In this document: positions 16,937 through 21,584 of the stretch, in pieces
Layout: each line of letters begins with the position of its first letter
How positions within the stretch are numbered: position 1 is the first letter of the stretch
Assembly: GCF_003574315.2 (NCBI RefSeq)
Contig: NZ_AP025739.1
Span: 3,472,001-3,536,000, forward strand
Length of the DNA stretch: 64,000 nucleotides
Origin: Capsulimonas corticalis
GTDB taxonomy: Bacteria; Armatimonadota; Armatimonadia; Armatimonadales; Capsulimonadaceae
Reading direction: 5' to 3'
Made by a program: the position numbers and the translations under genes
The notes under the pieces: model-generated
Seen by the model: only the letters and a program-made list of their open reading frames with translations
What the model was told of the DNA's origin: nothing
Databases searched by the model: none

Positions 16937-17560
16937 CTAAAACTTCTTGATCGCCAGCAGCACGCGGCCGAGGATGGATACATCCTGGCTGATGATGGGC
17001 TCGAAGTCCGGGTTCTGCGGCTGTAAGCGCACGCCGCCTTTTTCTCCGTAAAATGTTTTGACGGTTGCGTCGTCGCCGATCAGGGCGACGACGATTTCGC
17101 CGTCGCGCGCCGTGGTTTGTTTGCGGGCGATGACGATGTCGCCGTTATCGATCCCCGCGCCGACCATGGAGCGCCCCGTGACTTCCAGGGCGAATAGATC
17201 GCGTCCGCTCTCGGACCCGCGCGGCAGCAGGGAGAGGGGCAGGGGAAGCATCTCGGGCGTCTCGGACTGTTCGGCGAGCATGGGGACGCCGCCGGCCACT
17301 TTTCCCAGCAGCGGCACGCAAATGGCGCGGCCGAGCTGCATGGGAGTCCCCTCGTCCATCAATTCGATTCCACGTTTGTAGCGATCTCGCCGAATATAAC
17401 CTTTGAGTTCGAGATTATCTAAATGTTTTTTGACCGTGCAGCTGGAGCTCAGATTGACGAGCGCGCCGATTTCGCGGACCGTGGGGGCGTGACCCCGGAT
17501 TTCTATCTGCTGTCGAATGACAGCGAGTATGTCTTGCTGTTTTTCGGTTAAAGTAGTCAT
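16937..17560 (-). CDS. lexA: LexA SOS repressor
   Basis: LexA of 207 residues. A winged-helix DNA-binding domain (about 1-65, APTVREIGALVNLSSSCTVKKHLDNLELKGYIRR) is followed by the S24 autoprotease domain with the Ala89-Gly90 cleavage bond in KVAGGVPML, Ser131 in GRSMVGAGI and Lys168 in ATVKTF. The Ser-Lys spacing of 37 equals that of E. coli LexA. It represses DNA-damage genes until RecA filaments trigger self-cleavage. A GAGG ribosome binding site precedes the ATG; a TATACT -10 lies at 17616-17611. It is divergent from a LysM gene that carries SOS-like boxes. Confidence 0.97.
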   Translation of the reverse strand: MTTLTEKQQDILAVIRQQIEIRGHAPTVREIGALVNLSSSCTVKKHLDNLELKGYIRRDRYKRGIELMDEGTPMQLGRAICVPLLGKVAGGVPMLAEQSETPEMLPLPLSLLPRGSESGRDLFALEVTGRSMVGAGIDNGDIVIARKQTTARDGEIVVALIGDDATVKTFYGEKGGVRLQPQNPDFEPIISQDVSILGRVLLAIKKF

Positions 17561-17679
17561 TAAGGAACCTCATAGAGTGCAAAAGAGGCGGAATAAGTGC
17601 ATATAGCGCTAGTATACCCGCATTTACGCAAGCGTTCACACAAAAGTTTCTTTTTTTACGCTCTTGGGGATAACTTTTC

Positions 17680-17708
17680 TTGACTCGGGAGCCGTTCTTT
17701 GGTATACT
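17680..17708 (+). promoter_or_regulatory. promoter of the LysM membrane-protein gene
   Basis: TTGACT (17680-17685) and TATACT (17703-17708) have 17-base spacing. The predicted start near 17715 is directly followed by two SOS-like boxes. Confidence 0.8.
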
Positions 17709-17718
17709 CTGGGTGTGG

Positions 17719-17749
17719 CGAACATTAGTTTGCCCGAAACATTAGTTTG
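17719..17749. promoter_or_regulatory. two tandem SOS-like (LexA) boxes
   Basis: CGAACATTAGTTTG at 17719-17732 has the CGAAC-N4-GTTYG form of the Gram-positive LexA box. A second copy, GAAACATTAGTTTG, lies at 17736-17749, 17 bp downstream. Both lie just after the -10 of the LysM gene, an ideal position for repression, and face the divergent lexA gene. Confidence 0.75.
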
Positions 17750-17780
17750 CTGTGTTGATCAACTGTTGAGGAGACTTCCG

Positions 17781-18284
17781 ATGGGTGCTTTGAGAATTGA
17801 TGTGTGTGAGAATGCGGCGTCAGACGAGCTCGTGGAGAGCGTTTCCGCTCCGCGTCTGGTGCTGACCAGCTTTGAAGAACTGCCGCCCGAAGTCAAGAAG
17901 ACTTCGCCGGTGAAAAATAACGCGCGTGTTCGCCGCGAGCGCCGCCGCCGGCGCGACGGCTACTGGCTTTCGGCTGTAATGATCTGCCTGACCATGGCCG
18001 CCGGAGGCGGCGTCTGGAGCACGCTGGCGCATATGCAGGCGGCGCATCCCGAGGAGACAATTACCGTTACGGTCAAGCCGGGCGATACGCTCTGGAAGTA
18101 CGCCAAACGCTTCGGATCCTCGGATCGCTACATTCTGGACCAGGTCGACGATCTGGCGCGCGCGAACTCACTGTCGAGCCGCGCGGCGCTGATCCCGGGA
18201 CAGCATTTGAAGATCGCGGTCACCAATCCCGTCGAGCTCGCGAAGCTGGAGACGAGCCGCGAACTAAAGCTCGCTCATCGGTAA
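17781..18284 (+). CDS. LysM-domain membrane protein, candidate SOS division inhibitor
   Basis: Protein of 167 residues with a basic, probably cytoplasmic N-terminal region (1-60, ending in RRERRRRRD), one transmembrane segment (about 61-83) and an extracytoplasmic LysM domain (about 94-146, VTVKPGDTLWKYAKRFGS...LIPGQHLKI). The architecture and its position divergent from lexA match Bacillus YneA, the SOS-induced cell-division suppressor, though YneA has a much shorter N-terminus. The promoter carries two SOS-like boxes. A TTGAGGAG ribosome binding site fixes the ATG at 17781. The division-inhibitor role is inferred from context and domain order, not from detailed similarity. Confidence 0.75.
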   Translation: MGALRIDVCENAASDELVESVSAPRLVLTSFEELPPEVKKTSPVKNNARVRRERRRRRDGYWLSAVMICLTMAAGGGVWSTLAHMQAAHPEETITVTVKPGDTLWKYAKRFGSSDRYILDQVDDLARANSLSSRAALIPGQHLKIAVTNPVELAKLETSRELKLAHR

Positions 18285-18320
18285 TATTGCCCGCTCATTT
18301 TGCTGGGACGGCTGAAATGC

Positions 18321-18358
18321 AAACGCCCCGCCTGTCGACTAAGACAGGCGGGGCGTTT
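18321..18358 (+). terminator. Rho-independent terminator after the LysM gene
   Basis: A perfect 16-bp stem (18321-18336 with 18343-18358) with a 6-base loop ends in TTTGTTTG. With AAA on its other flank it may work for both strands. Confidence 0.85.
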
Positions 18359-18370
18359 GTTTGCGCGTCG

Positions 18371-18413
18371 GTCTTAAGAAACTTAAGTCTTAAGACTACG
18401 TTTCTTAAGAAAC
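18371..18413. repeat. cluster of CTTAAG palindromes at the end of the Rad52/ERF-like gene
   Basis: Four CTTAAG hexamers occur in about 40 bp. GTCTTAAG (18371) pairs with CTTAAGAC (18388), and CTTAAGAAAC pairs with GTTTCTTAAG, giving alternative hairpins; GTTTCTTAAGAAAC is itself a perfect palindrome over the stop codon (18405-18407). It may act as the 3' end of the minus-strand transcript. Confidence 0.55.
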
Positions 18414-19253
18414 GCCGGCGGGTTCGGCGTCGTACGCCGTCGCGGCTTCACGGACTTCGCGGCCTTTGTTTTCCTTTTGACAGGTCGGGCAGAGATCGAC
18501 GCCGTAGTTGCGGATCGACAGTTCGTGCTGGGACTTGGTCAGCGTTTTATTGCAGTTCTGGCACGTGGGCGGTCCGGAGGGCGCCTCGGGCTTTGGCTTT
18601 GCCTCAGCCGGGTCTTGCGCGGCTTTCCCGCTGGGAGCCGGCTCCTCGCCGAAGGGATTGTCGTCGTCCTCCAGGGCGGGGCGGGATGGGCGCTGTTCCT
18701 GCGCCGCCGGCGCGCCGGCGCGCTGCGGGCGTCCGTTATCCTGCGGGCGTCCATTGTCCACGCGCCCAATGTCCTGTGGGCGTCCGTTATCCGAGCGGCC
18801 GTTGTCCGGCGCGCGGTCGAAGCGCGGAGGAGGGGAGGGCGCGCGGTCAAAGCGTCCGTTCGGCGGTCCATTGAACCGGTCGGGCCCGCCGCCGCCTTGC
18901 GGGCTGTCGGCGAAGCGCCCGACGGTGACTTCGTCGAGCTCCGGCGCGAACTGCGTGCCGTAGCCGCAGAGGGCGAGCGCGCGTCCGACCGCGCCGGTCT
19001 CGGCCTTTTCGATATAATCGCCGAAGCCCTTGATGTCTTCTTTCTTCGTCCCCATCGCCATCAGGCGCCCTTCCGCGTTATAGATCCTCGCGCGGAAGAT
19101 CGCGTAGTTCTTATCGGAGTCGATCGTGATCGGCTCCGTCTCAATTCCCCAGTCCGGATGCTCGCTCCGGAACCAAATCAGACGGGCGGATACCGGAAGA
19201 TAGGACCGTCCCCCTTGAACTTTGATCAAATGCCGATTCGGATCAAACGTCAT
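18405..19253 (-). CDS. Rad52/ERF-like ssDNA-annealing protein with C-terminal zinc ribbon
   Basis: Protein of 282 residues. The N-terminal ~110 residues (YLPVSARLIWFRSEHPDW...YAIFRARI...GFGDYIEKAETGAVGRALALCGYGTQ) resemble Rad52/DdrA/ERF-type single-strand annealing proteins, especially the KAETxAxGRAL-GYG motif. A low-complexity linker (about 115-225) contains repeated NGRPQD units, and a Cys4 zinc-ribbon (C-x2-C near 231-234 and C-x2-C near 255-258) ends the protein. AAGGAG lies 7 bases before the ATG at 19253, favouring it over GTG at 19256. Its promoter carries an SOS-like box, so it is probably damage-inducible. The exact family is not certain. Confidence 0.7.
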   Translation of the reverse strand: MTFDPNRHLIKVQGGRSYLPVSARLIWFRSEHPDWGIETEPITIDSDKNYAIFRARIYNAEGRLMAMGTKKEDIKGFGDYIEKAETGAVGRALALCGYGTQFAPELDEVTVGRFADSPQGGGGPDRFNGPPNGRFDRAPSPPPRFDRAPDNGRSDNGRPQDIGRVDNGRPQDNGRPQRAGAPAAQEQRPSRPALEDDDNPFGEEPAPSGKAAQDPAEAKPKPEAPSGPPTCQNCNKTLTKSQHELSIRNYGVDLCPTCQKENKGREVREAATAYDAEPAGVS

Positions 19254-19317
19254 CACTCTGCTCCTTAAACCTTGTCAACAATCATCTCTGAACACCGCAA
19301 AAGTGTAGATTTTCATT

Positions 19318-19331
19318 CAAACACCTGTTCG
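19318..19331 (-). promoter_or_regulatory. SOS-like (LexA) box of the Rad52/ERF-like gene
   Basis: On the minus strand the site reads CGAACAGGTGTTTG, the same CGAAC-N4-GTTTG pattern as in the LysM promoter. It starts 12 bases downstream of the -10 box, nearly the same geometry as at 17719. Confidence 0.75.
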
Positions 19332-19343
19332 ACTAACAGAGGT

Positions 19344-19372
19344 ATTTTACCATAATCTAGTATCGATGTCAA
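19344..19372 (-). promoter_or_regulatory. promoter of the Rad52/ERF-like gene
   Basis: Minus-strand TTGACA (19372-19367), 17-base spacer, TAAAAT (19349-19344). The ~75-base leader contains the SOS-like box and an AAGGAG ribosome binding site. Confidence 0.85.
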
Positions 19373-19455
19373 ACTTTTATTAAATTTTTTATTATCTATG
19401 AATAGCAACAACAGTCAATGCTGAGCTTAACAGAGATTTAACAGAAACAGTCGCG

Positions 19456-19485
19456 TTGACATTGCCACATATCATATGAGATAAT
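19456..19485 (+). promoter_or_regulatory. promoter and leader of the G5/3D protein gene
   Basis: TTGACA (19456-19461), 18-base spacer, GATAAT (19480-19485). The following ~105-base leader is GC-rich with two GCGTTCCGG repeats and possible small hairpins before a GAGGAGGAG ribosome binding site. I could not match it to a known riboswitch. The rest of the 19257-19595 gap holds the divergent Rad52/ERF promoter. Confidence 0.75.
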
Positions 19486-19595
19486 CCCCTTGCGTTGATG
19501 AACTAGCAAAGGTCGGCTCGCCATAAGGCGTTCCGGCATGGCGCGTTCCGGAGGTGTCCGGTTCGCGTGCAACCCAAACCTGAGGAGGAGACCAT

Positions 19596-20609
19596 TTGCG
19601 AAACACACAAACGACGCGCGTGACTCGGAGCGTATCCGGATTAGAAGTAACATCCGGCGCTGTTGATTCCCACACGTGCGCACCCATGAAGACGTCCCGA
19701 AGAAGTAAGACTTCCGTACGTTCTTTCTCTTACATCGCCGTCGCTGGAGTATTCGCGACCGCAACGATGCTTTGCCCCTTTACCGTCCTGGCGCAGAACG
19801 CACCCGTTCTCGCCGCGCCGGCCCAGGGATCTCCCACCCCCACCGCGGATGTGAACCGCGGCGCAGCGGAGACGTCCACCGTTCTCGTGACGGATGGCGC
19901 CCAGCATGCACAGATCTTCCAAACTGTCGGCCGCACTGTCGCGGGCGCATTGGAAGAGATGAAGATCACCCTCAGCCCTGGCGACAAAGTCGCCCCCCCG
20001 CTGACCGCTTCCGTGACTACCGGCACGCCGATCACGATCACTCGTGTCCGTACGGAGAAGCAAACGGAAACGGCGGCAATTCCTTACAAGACCGTCTTCC
20101 GGATGAGCCCCGGCGTTCCCGCCGGCCAGATCGTCAAAGGCGCGCATGGACGCGCCGGCGTTCTCACCAAGACGTTCCTCGCGACCTATACGAACGACCA
20201 TCTGACGAGCCGCAAGCTTGTCTCCAAGGTCGTCACGAAGCCCGCGCAGGATGAAGAGACCCTGGGCGGCGTTCGCCAAATGGCGCGCGCGCTGCCGTCG
20301 CGCGGCGGCTCCTATCAGCGCCTCCGCATGATCTCGATGGTCGCGACCGGTTACTCTCCGCGTGAGGGCAACGGACGCGGCATTTGCGCTACGGGAATGC
20401 GCGCCGGTTACGGCGTCGTGGCGGTCGATCCTCGCGTGATCCGGCTCCACTCCCGGCTTTACATCGAAGGCTACGGCTACGCCGTCGCTGGAGACACGGG
20501 CGGGGCCATCAAAGGCCGCCGTGTGGACCTCGGCCATAATACTTATCGTGAAGCCTGCAATGTGGGCCGCAAGCACGTCAAAGTCTGGGTGCTCGATAAC
20601 GCCCGCTAA
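19596..20609 (+). CDS. G5/3D-domain cell-wall protein (YabE/Rpf-like)
   Basis: Exported protein of 337 residues. After a long N-terminus and a hydrophobic signal (about 43-67, YIAVAGVFATATMLCPFTVLAQ) come a DUF348-like segment (VLVTDGAQHAQIFQTVG), a G5-like region (about 140-215) and a C-terminal 3D domain (about 245-337) with ATGYSP, GVVAVDP, LYIEGYGYAVAGDTGGAIKG and the Asp residues of the family. Such proteins (YabE, Rpf, YocH) remodel peptidoglycan, and 3D domains resemble lytic transglycosylase folds. I chose the TTG at 19596 because GAGGAGGAG lies 5 bases upstream; the ATG at 19686 has no ribosome binding site. Confidence 0.85.
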   Translation: MRNTQTTRVTRSVSGLEVTSGAVDSHTCAPMKTSRRSKTSVRSFSYIAVAGVFATATMLCPFTVLAQNAPVLAAPAQGSPTPTADVNRGAAETSTVLVTDGAQHAQIFQTVGRTVAGALEEMKITLSPGDKVAPPLTASVTTGTPITITRVRTEKQTETAAIPYKTVFRMSPGVPAGQIVKGAHGRAGVLTKTFLATYTNDHLTSRKLVSKVVTKPAQDEETLGGVRQMARALPSRGGSYQRLRMISMVATGYSPREGNGRGICATGMRAGYGVVAVDPRVIRLHSRLYIEGYGYAVAGDTGGAIKGRRVDLGHNTYREACNVGRKHVKVWVLDNAR

Positions 20610-20717: not shown

Positions 20718-21584
20718 ATGAACTTATCCAGCCCCGCCGTCGTTTCCGCGATCCTCAAGCGCCACGACCTGCGCCCACGCCGTCGTTTCGGCCAGAACTT
20801 CCTGATTGACGCCAATATGCTCGGCAAGATCGTGACCGCCGGCGGGGTCGGCCCGGGCGATCAAGTTCTGGAGATCGGCGCCGGCCTCGGCGTGCTGACC
20901 CATGCTCTTGGGGAAACGGTGACGCCCGAGGGACGCGTGGTGACGGTGGAGATCGACCGGGACTTGCTGCCGGTGCTGGAGGAGACCATCGGCTCGCTGG
21001 CTCAGGTGAATGTCGTCTCCGCCGACGCCCTTTCGCTCGACTGGCCCGTCTTCCTGCGCGAGCAGTTCTCCGAAGACAAACCCGTCCACACCATCGCCAA
21101 CATTCCCTATAACATCACGACGCCTTTGCTGACGACGATGGTTGAGAACAAAGACCGCATTTGCGTGATCGTCCTCCTCGTCCAAAAAGAAGTCGCCCAG
21201 CGCCTCGCCGCCGCGCCCGCGACCTCCGACTATGGCTCTCTCAGCGTCTACGCCCAGTACCACGCCAAAGTCGAGATCATCGCGACCGTGTCCCGCCGCG
21301 TCTTCCTGCCCGCCCCCGACGTCGACAGCGCCATCGTCCGCCTCACCCCGTACACCGAGCCGCCGATCCGCGCCCAGGACGAACCCACCTTCTTCGCCGT
21401 CGTCCGCGCCGCCTTCGGCCAGCGCCGCAAAGCCCTCCCCAACGCCCTCACCGGCGACCCCGCCCTCGGCTGGGACCGCGACAAGGCGGCGAAGGCGCTC
21501 AGCGCGGCGGGGATCGATCCGCAGAGGCGAGGGGAGACATTGTCGGTAGCGGAGTTTGTGAAATTGGCCGATTCTGGTCTCTAA
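20718..21584 (+). CDS. rsmA: 16S rRNA dimethyladenosine transferase RsmA (KsgA)
   Basis: RsmA of 288 residues, which dimethylates A1518 and A1519 of 16S rRNA during 30S maturation. It has the N-terminal RRRFGQNFLID, SAM motif LEIGAGLGVLT, acidic EIDRDL loop and the catalytic motif IV NIPYNITTP; the C-terminal domain includes AFGQRRKAL. Length is usual. A TACAAT -10 ends only 6 bases before the ATG and no ribosome binding site is visible, so translation may be leaderless. Confidence 0.97.
   Translation: MNLSSPAVVSAILKRHDLRPRRRFGQNFLIDANMLGKIVTAGGVGPGDQVLEIGAGLGVLTHALGETVTPEGRVVTVEIDRDLLPVLEETIGSLAQVNVVSADALSLDWPVFLREQFSEDKPVHTIANIPYNITTPLLTTMVENKDRICVIVLLVQKEVAQRLAAAPATSDYGSLSVYAQYHAKVEIIATVSRRVFLPAPDVDSAIVRLTPYTEPPIRAQDEPTFFAVVRAAFGQRRKALPNALTGDPALGWDRDKAAKALSAAGIDPQRRGETLSVAEFVKLADSGL

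Follow-up and report, generated by a model that had tools for sequence, protein, structure and literature searches.

A lexA-linked LysM membrane protein gene with conserved LexA-type boxes: a candidate SOS-controlled division inhibitor in Armatimonadota

Division inhibitors that carry a LysM domain and belong to the SOS response are known from Firmicutes and Actinobacteria, and the consensus of the Gram-positive LexA box is CGAAC-N4-GTTCG. LysM membrane proteins also have wall roles unrelated to SOS. In YneA of Bacillus subtilis, the transmembrane (TM) helix docks on TM7 of FtsW, and glycan binding by the LysM domain is essential (PMC13396833). ChiZ (Rv2719c) of Mycobacterium tuberculosis has 165 residues, comprising a disordered cytoplasmic segment (1-64), a TM helix (65-86), and a LysM domain (113-165), and its N-terminus and TM helix suffice for filamentation (PMC7355643); the protein was originally described as a wall hydrolase (PMC6851548). 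Location next to lexA is common to YneA, ChiZ, SosA, and DivS (PMC6851548). For Armatimonadota, we found no open-access literature on LexA or on the SOS response.

The locus described here lies in a 64,000-nucleotide stretch of the Capsulimonas corticalis genome (the window), within which positions are given. Its lexA gene (16937-17560, minus strand), paralog C of three, encodes an HTH domain and an S24 peptidase matched by PF01726 and PF00717, and scores 182.1 bits against TIGR00498 (cut-off, 110.95). Divergent from it is a gene on the plus strand (17781-18284) for a LysM membrane protein of 167 amino acids, in which PF01476 matches residues 97-145; the divergent arrangement proposed in the original prediction is thus confirmed by model matches to both genes. 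The ATG start of the LysM gene was fixed by alignment to relatives (MGALRIDV versus MVPLRIDV), and GAGGAG lies just 5' of it. A sigma-70-type promoter had been claimed at 17680-17708 on the plus strand and is present there as TTGACT-17-TATACT, with TG preceding the -10 element; it is one of seven promoter-like sites within 17300-19700, a region in which 0.8 would be expected. At the end of the gene, a perfect 16-bp hairpin, AAACGCCCCGCCTGTC-GACTAA-GACAGGCGGGGCGTTT (18321-18358; read from the sequence and not in the scan listing), is likely the terminator. Farther along, the window holds a gene for a 3D and G5 domain protein (19596-20609; cell-wall-binding, EntA-D/SpsC-like), with an rsmA/ksgA-like gene (20718-21584) as its neighbor.

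The spacer between the two genes contains LexA-type boxes on both sides. Box 1, CGAACATTAGTTTG, is found at 17719-17732 (plus strand) as predicted, 10 bp past the -10 element, a position conserved in relatives. It fits CGAAC-N4-GTTYG, and the relatives have CAAAC-N4-GTTTG. What had been called a second copy, at 17736-17749 (plus strand), does follow box 1 at a 17-bp step but is not an exact copy, as GAAACATTAGTTTG is identical at 12 of 14 positions and its 5' half mismatches CGAAC. On the lexA side, a degenerate box, CACACAAAAGTTTC (17637-17650), shows two departures from CRAAC-N4-GTTYG and is placed like the perfect CAAAC-N4-GTTTG boxes of all five family relatives; the distance from the lexA-side box to box 1 is 82 bp, compared with 63-81 bp between the promoter boxes of the relatives. 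Dinucleotide shuffles of the 220-bp spacer of the window produced a box in 5 of 3000 cases. Nine lexA-lysM spacers, six from Capsulimonadaceae and three from a distant Armatimonadota family, together hold 18 perfect CRAAC-N4-GTTYG boxes against an expectation of 0.011 (3000 dinucleotide shuffles; maximum, 1).

The divergent pair is present in six genomes of the family, that of the window and five others (G013, G015, G016, G017, and G018). In the remaining family genome, G014, whose assembly is 69% complete, the LysM model was unmatched. Perfect CAAAC-N4-GTTTG palindromes stand at both divergent promoters in all five relatives, within spacers of about 206-224 bp. The lysM-side box lies past the -10 element of the LysM promoter and 36-60 bp before the ATG, and the lexA-side box lies 62-92 bp upstream of lexA. 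G018 has two perfect lysM-side boxes with the same 17-bp step as in the window, and the other four relatives have one. In the sister family of the same order, the LysM gene is divergent from lexA in 5 of 12 genomes (G003, G009, G010, G011, and G012), and the box-like repeats in these spacers are more diverged. A distant family also has the divergent pair (G040, G063, G111, and G116), with perfect CRAAC-N4-GTTYG boxes and with LysM proteins in which the N-terminal extension is nearly absent; in G116, the mechanically called lexA ORF extends too far and runs into the start of the LysM gene. The survey of the phylum covered about 120 LexA loci, taking between one and three LexA genes from each genome and flanks of 1.5 kb, and showed the pair at no other locus. 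A scan of all genomes with a four-sequence LysM alignment returned four loci, all in Armatimonadota MAGs already among the relatives, which agrees with the phylum named in the original prediction. In genus g8 (G004-G007), the LysM homologue lies apart from lexA and has a perfect CAAAC-N4-GTTTG box just upstream; the box therefore tracks the LysM gene and does not merely reflect lexA autoregulation. The original prediction had proposed a search of other Armatimonadota for LysM genes beside lexA with the same boxes and had made LexA control of the LysM gene depend on conservation of those boxes. The pair is found in three families and the boxes are conserved, which strongly supports such control.

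LexA-type boxes also occur elsewhere in the genome of the window, a single 7.65-Mb contig. By pattern search, on which all genome-wide counts rest, CRAAC-N4-GTTYG is found at 25 distinct places, and the boxes within coding sequence look like background. Others precede Y-family (ImuB/DinB-like) polymerase genes (L014, L019, L020, and L076), uvrC (L021), and a SRAP gene that diverges from a polymerase gene (L076). An orphan protein of 123-132 amino acids (MSETITT...IGNLFGPEWEDELDSMDG), encoded before two of the Y-family polymerase genes, has a box of its own. Eleven of the 12 promoter-located boxes are hybrids that combine a CGAAC with a CAAAC half-site, the CGAAC half being nearly always the one upstream relative to the gene, whereas sister genera have symmetric CAAAC-N4-GTTTG at lexA-lysM. 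The recA gene of this genome lies elsewhere and has just a degenerate site close to its -10 element; a perfect CGAACAGACGTTTG precedes recA in G016 and G017. We also observed a box directly before a gene for a cNMP-binding and CAP12/Pycsar TIR effector (L018:3055-3853; G000:C1:4179554), an anti-phage effector that is possibly under damage control.

The gene next to lysM (18405-19256, minus strand) encodes a Rad52/Sak-like, single-strand-annealing-type protein. It is unmatched in Pfam and NCBIfam, and its N-terminal domain, as modeled by AlphaFold2 (pLDDT, 87), gives the Sak SSAP 8qe9 (E, 9e-4) and human RAD52 8rjw as best Foldseek matches. A perfect LexA-type box, CGAACAGGTGTTTG (19318-19331, minus strand), precedes the gene, 12 bp past the -10 element of a strong promoter at 19372-19344 on the minus strand. 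The G014 orthologue has an identical box 61 bp upstream, and in G016 and G017 the orthologue is situated between recA and the lexA-lysM pair. This gene probably belongs to the same regulon as the LysM gene. Its N-terminal domain is encoded in 45 of 151 Armatimonadota genomes, and a second copy of the gene is present in the genome of the window (G000:C1:6433764).

Since the boxes are conserved in relatives, are kept at relocated LysM genes, and elsewhere accompany repair genes, control of the LysM gene by LexA and the SOS response is, on sequence grounds, very likely. We consider it probable that the lexA-lysM locus as a whole is an SOS module in which LexA represses lysM, damage relieves the repression, and the LysM protein blocks synthesis of the septal wall. 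LexA at 17719-17749, just past the -10 element, would silence the LysM gene, and LexA at 17637-17650 would autoregulate lexA. When DNA is damaged, LexA would be inactivated by RecA filaments formed on single-stranded DNA, and the LysM membrane protein would then be made. Its TM helix would bring it to the divisome, most likely to FtsW/FtsI, and its LysM domain would bind nascent septal glycan, holding up construction of the septal wall until the DNA has been repaired. Targeting may be helped by the Arg-rich cytoplasmic tail, as in ChiZ. That the protein arrests division after DNA damage is the best inference from its architecture and from synteny with YneA and ChiZ. Counting against the SOS module are the scores of the LysM proteins of the window and of four distant-family genomes, which fall below the YneA cut-off; the degenerate lexA-side box and imperfect second lysM box of the window; and a Gly-Gly cleavage site in LexA-C, a change called non-cleavable in Synechocystis, where the catalytic Ser is also lost.

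Three lexA genes of this genome exceed the TIGR00498 cut-off: A (G000:C1:4428247), B (962292), and C (in the window). The original prediction mentioned neither these paralogs nor the cleavage site of LexA-C nor the SOS-type gene beside lysM. In a 120-row LexA tree, LexA-C groups with the five other LysM-linked LexAs of the family (support, 100/97), whereas A and B are placed elsewhere. The recognition helices are SSCTVKKHL in LexA-C, SSC[ST]V in the C type, and SSSSTVHAHL in the A type. With three paralogs in one genome, the boxes might be read mainly by A or B, LexA-C having diverged into a repressor that serves another role, and some of the evidence leans this way: the promoters of paralog A in the family carry CGAACATNYGTTG-type sites just past the -10 element, the promoter-located boxes of the genome are nearly all CGAAC/CAAAC hybrids, and LexA-C has its Gly-Gly site. 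Yet perfect boxes occupy both divergent promoters beside LexA-C in every one of the five family relatives, and the same box type is found in genomes whose sole LexA match has the SSC-type helix. In G063, G111, and G116 of the distant family, a single LexA match with such a helix accompanies boxes of the CRAAC-N4-GTTYG kind, so it is most likely the SSC-type LexA that reads this box. We therefore regard a main role for A or B as unlikely, while giving it some weight; the two other LexAs could bind the lexA-lysM sites as well.

The scissile site of LexA-C reads V-A-G-G-V-P, with Gly at the position of Escherichia coli Ala84, and V-A-G-G-x-P is found in all six C-type LexAs of the family (that of the window and L052, L053, L054, L055, and L056). 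The family LexA-C thus lacks the Ala-Gly (or Cys-Gly) scissile bond of self-cleaving LexA. The other LexAs of the phylum that could be read, about 110 in number, have Ala-Gly; among them are A and B from these same genomes and the LysM-linked LexAs of other families. Six further rows were unreadable by the pattern. The family LysM-linked LexAs also have a one-residue insertion in the cleavage-site loop relative to the other LexAs aligned. The Ser131 and Lys168 dyad is invariant and is kept in LexA-C, which argues that its cleavage is still under selection; it may proceed more slowly, or take place at the Ala-Gly bond that lies one residue before. The closest described case is LexA of Synechocystis PCC 6803, in which Gly-Gly likewise replaces the scissile Ala-Gly and which has been called non-cleavable, the catalytic Ser being lost as well (PMC3091678, PMC13416735, PMC4759255). 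Whereas the Synechocystis protein is thought to run no SOS response, LexA-C retains both Ser and Lys and coexists with canonical paralogs.

These features suggest a further reading, which we put forward as doubtful: the family LexA-C would be a slow or non-cleaving repressor, and the arrest would be released through mixing or competition with the two cleavable paralogs at the hybrid CGAAC/CAAAC operators. If true, LexA paralogs would here form a DNA-damage checkpoint that is delayed and has a threshold.

Returning to the product of lysM in the SOS module, hydropathy places its TM helix at about residues 65-86, preceded by 64 residues. In the AlphaFold2 model (mean pLDDT, 68; about 90 in the LysM part), residues 1-58 are disordered, a helix at 54-86 contains the TM segment, the LysM domain spans 92-147, and a C-terminal helix covers 150-166. 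Foldseek searches with this model returned generic LysM domains only. The N-terminal segment had been described as basic and absent from YneA; its absence from YneA stands, while basic character is limited to the second half, as the net charge is +3 over residues 1-64 and +8 over the last 25 residues before the membrane, an Arg-rich end. The +8 charge fits a topology with the N-terminus inside and LysM outside.

For the window protein, NCBIfam YneA (NF010723) ranks first among the models, aligning over model positions 7-86 of 87. It is also the only model that all 10 proteins of the LysM alignment (family and order) match, and the sole match for four distant-family LysM proteins. The five proteins for which scores were displayed, that of the window and the four distant ones, all fall below its cut-off. 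The window protein has a single TM helix followed by one C-terminal LysM domain, as YneA does, but its TM helix follows a long cytoplasmic extension, the 64 residues noted above. Membership in the YneA family was rejected, the score of 35.2 bits comparing with a curated cut-off of 60.

The protein could instead be a factor that remodels the wall or activates amidases, or else a wall anchor, produced under SOS control during damage. Weak matches to models of the ActS amidase activator, aggregation-promoting factor, and SafA point in this direction, as does the first description of ChiZ as a wall hydrolase (PMC6851548). On the other hand, YneA is the only model common to all 14 LysM proteins tested, the protein has no catalytic domain, and its lexA-adjacent layout is that of YneA, ChiZ, SosA, and DivS (PMC6851548); we judge a wall factor to be improbable. 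That the LysM gene simply happens to lie beside lexA, with boxes that are background matches, is scarcely credible: strict matches do occur about once per 400 kb of genome, several of them inside coding sequence, and one-mismatch counts in the 64-kb window are near background, but a chance origin of the boxes is ruled out by the shuffles (18 boxes versus 0.011 expected) and by conservation in three families and at relocated loci.

The lexA-lysM data supply an operator, a regulon, and a checkpoint gene that can be put to the test in Armatimonadota, in which the layout and its boxes are spread over several families and the box persists when the LysM gene leaves lexA. As a Gly-Gly LexA with an intact dyad occurs beside two canonical paralogs, the need for the P1 alanine in natural LexA self-cleavage also becomes directly testable.

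Among known lexA-linked division inhibitors, which the locus resembles in its adjacency to lexA and, as judged from sequence, in a promoter LexA-type operator conserved in relatives, SosA of Staphylococcus aureus and DivS of Corynebacterium glutamicum are likewise small single-pass proteins encoded beside lexA that stop division under SOS. Unlike the window protein, they have no LysM domain (PMC6851548). YneA shares with it divergence from lexA, a LexA-type box, and one TM helix followed by LysM. The differences are that YneA lacks the 64-residue N-terminus and that the boxes here, in Armatimonadota, lean to CAAAC over CGAAC half-sites. ChiZ, likened here by its published description only, is encoded beside lexA, is itself SOS induced, and slows division. 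Its plan, an approximately 64-residue disordered N-terminus with an Arg-rich part, then TM and LysM, is also that of the window protein by AlphaFold2 and charge, and the two agree in length (165 versus 167 amino acids), in the TM position at 65-86, and in the C-terminal placement of LysM. They differ in that the N-terminus here is Arg-rich in its second half only and in that the model here has a further, C-terminal helix (150-166) after LysM. Because ChiZ has a 64-residue disordered cytoplasmic N-terminus before its TM helix and LysM domain, the N-terminal extension is no novelty. Since tail and LysM domain are both present in the window protein, either the ChiZ or the YneA mechanism could apply, and by analogy it may well work like YneA and ChiZ without being filed as YneA.
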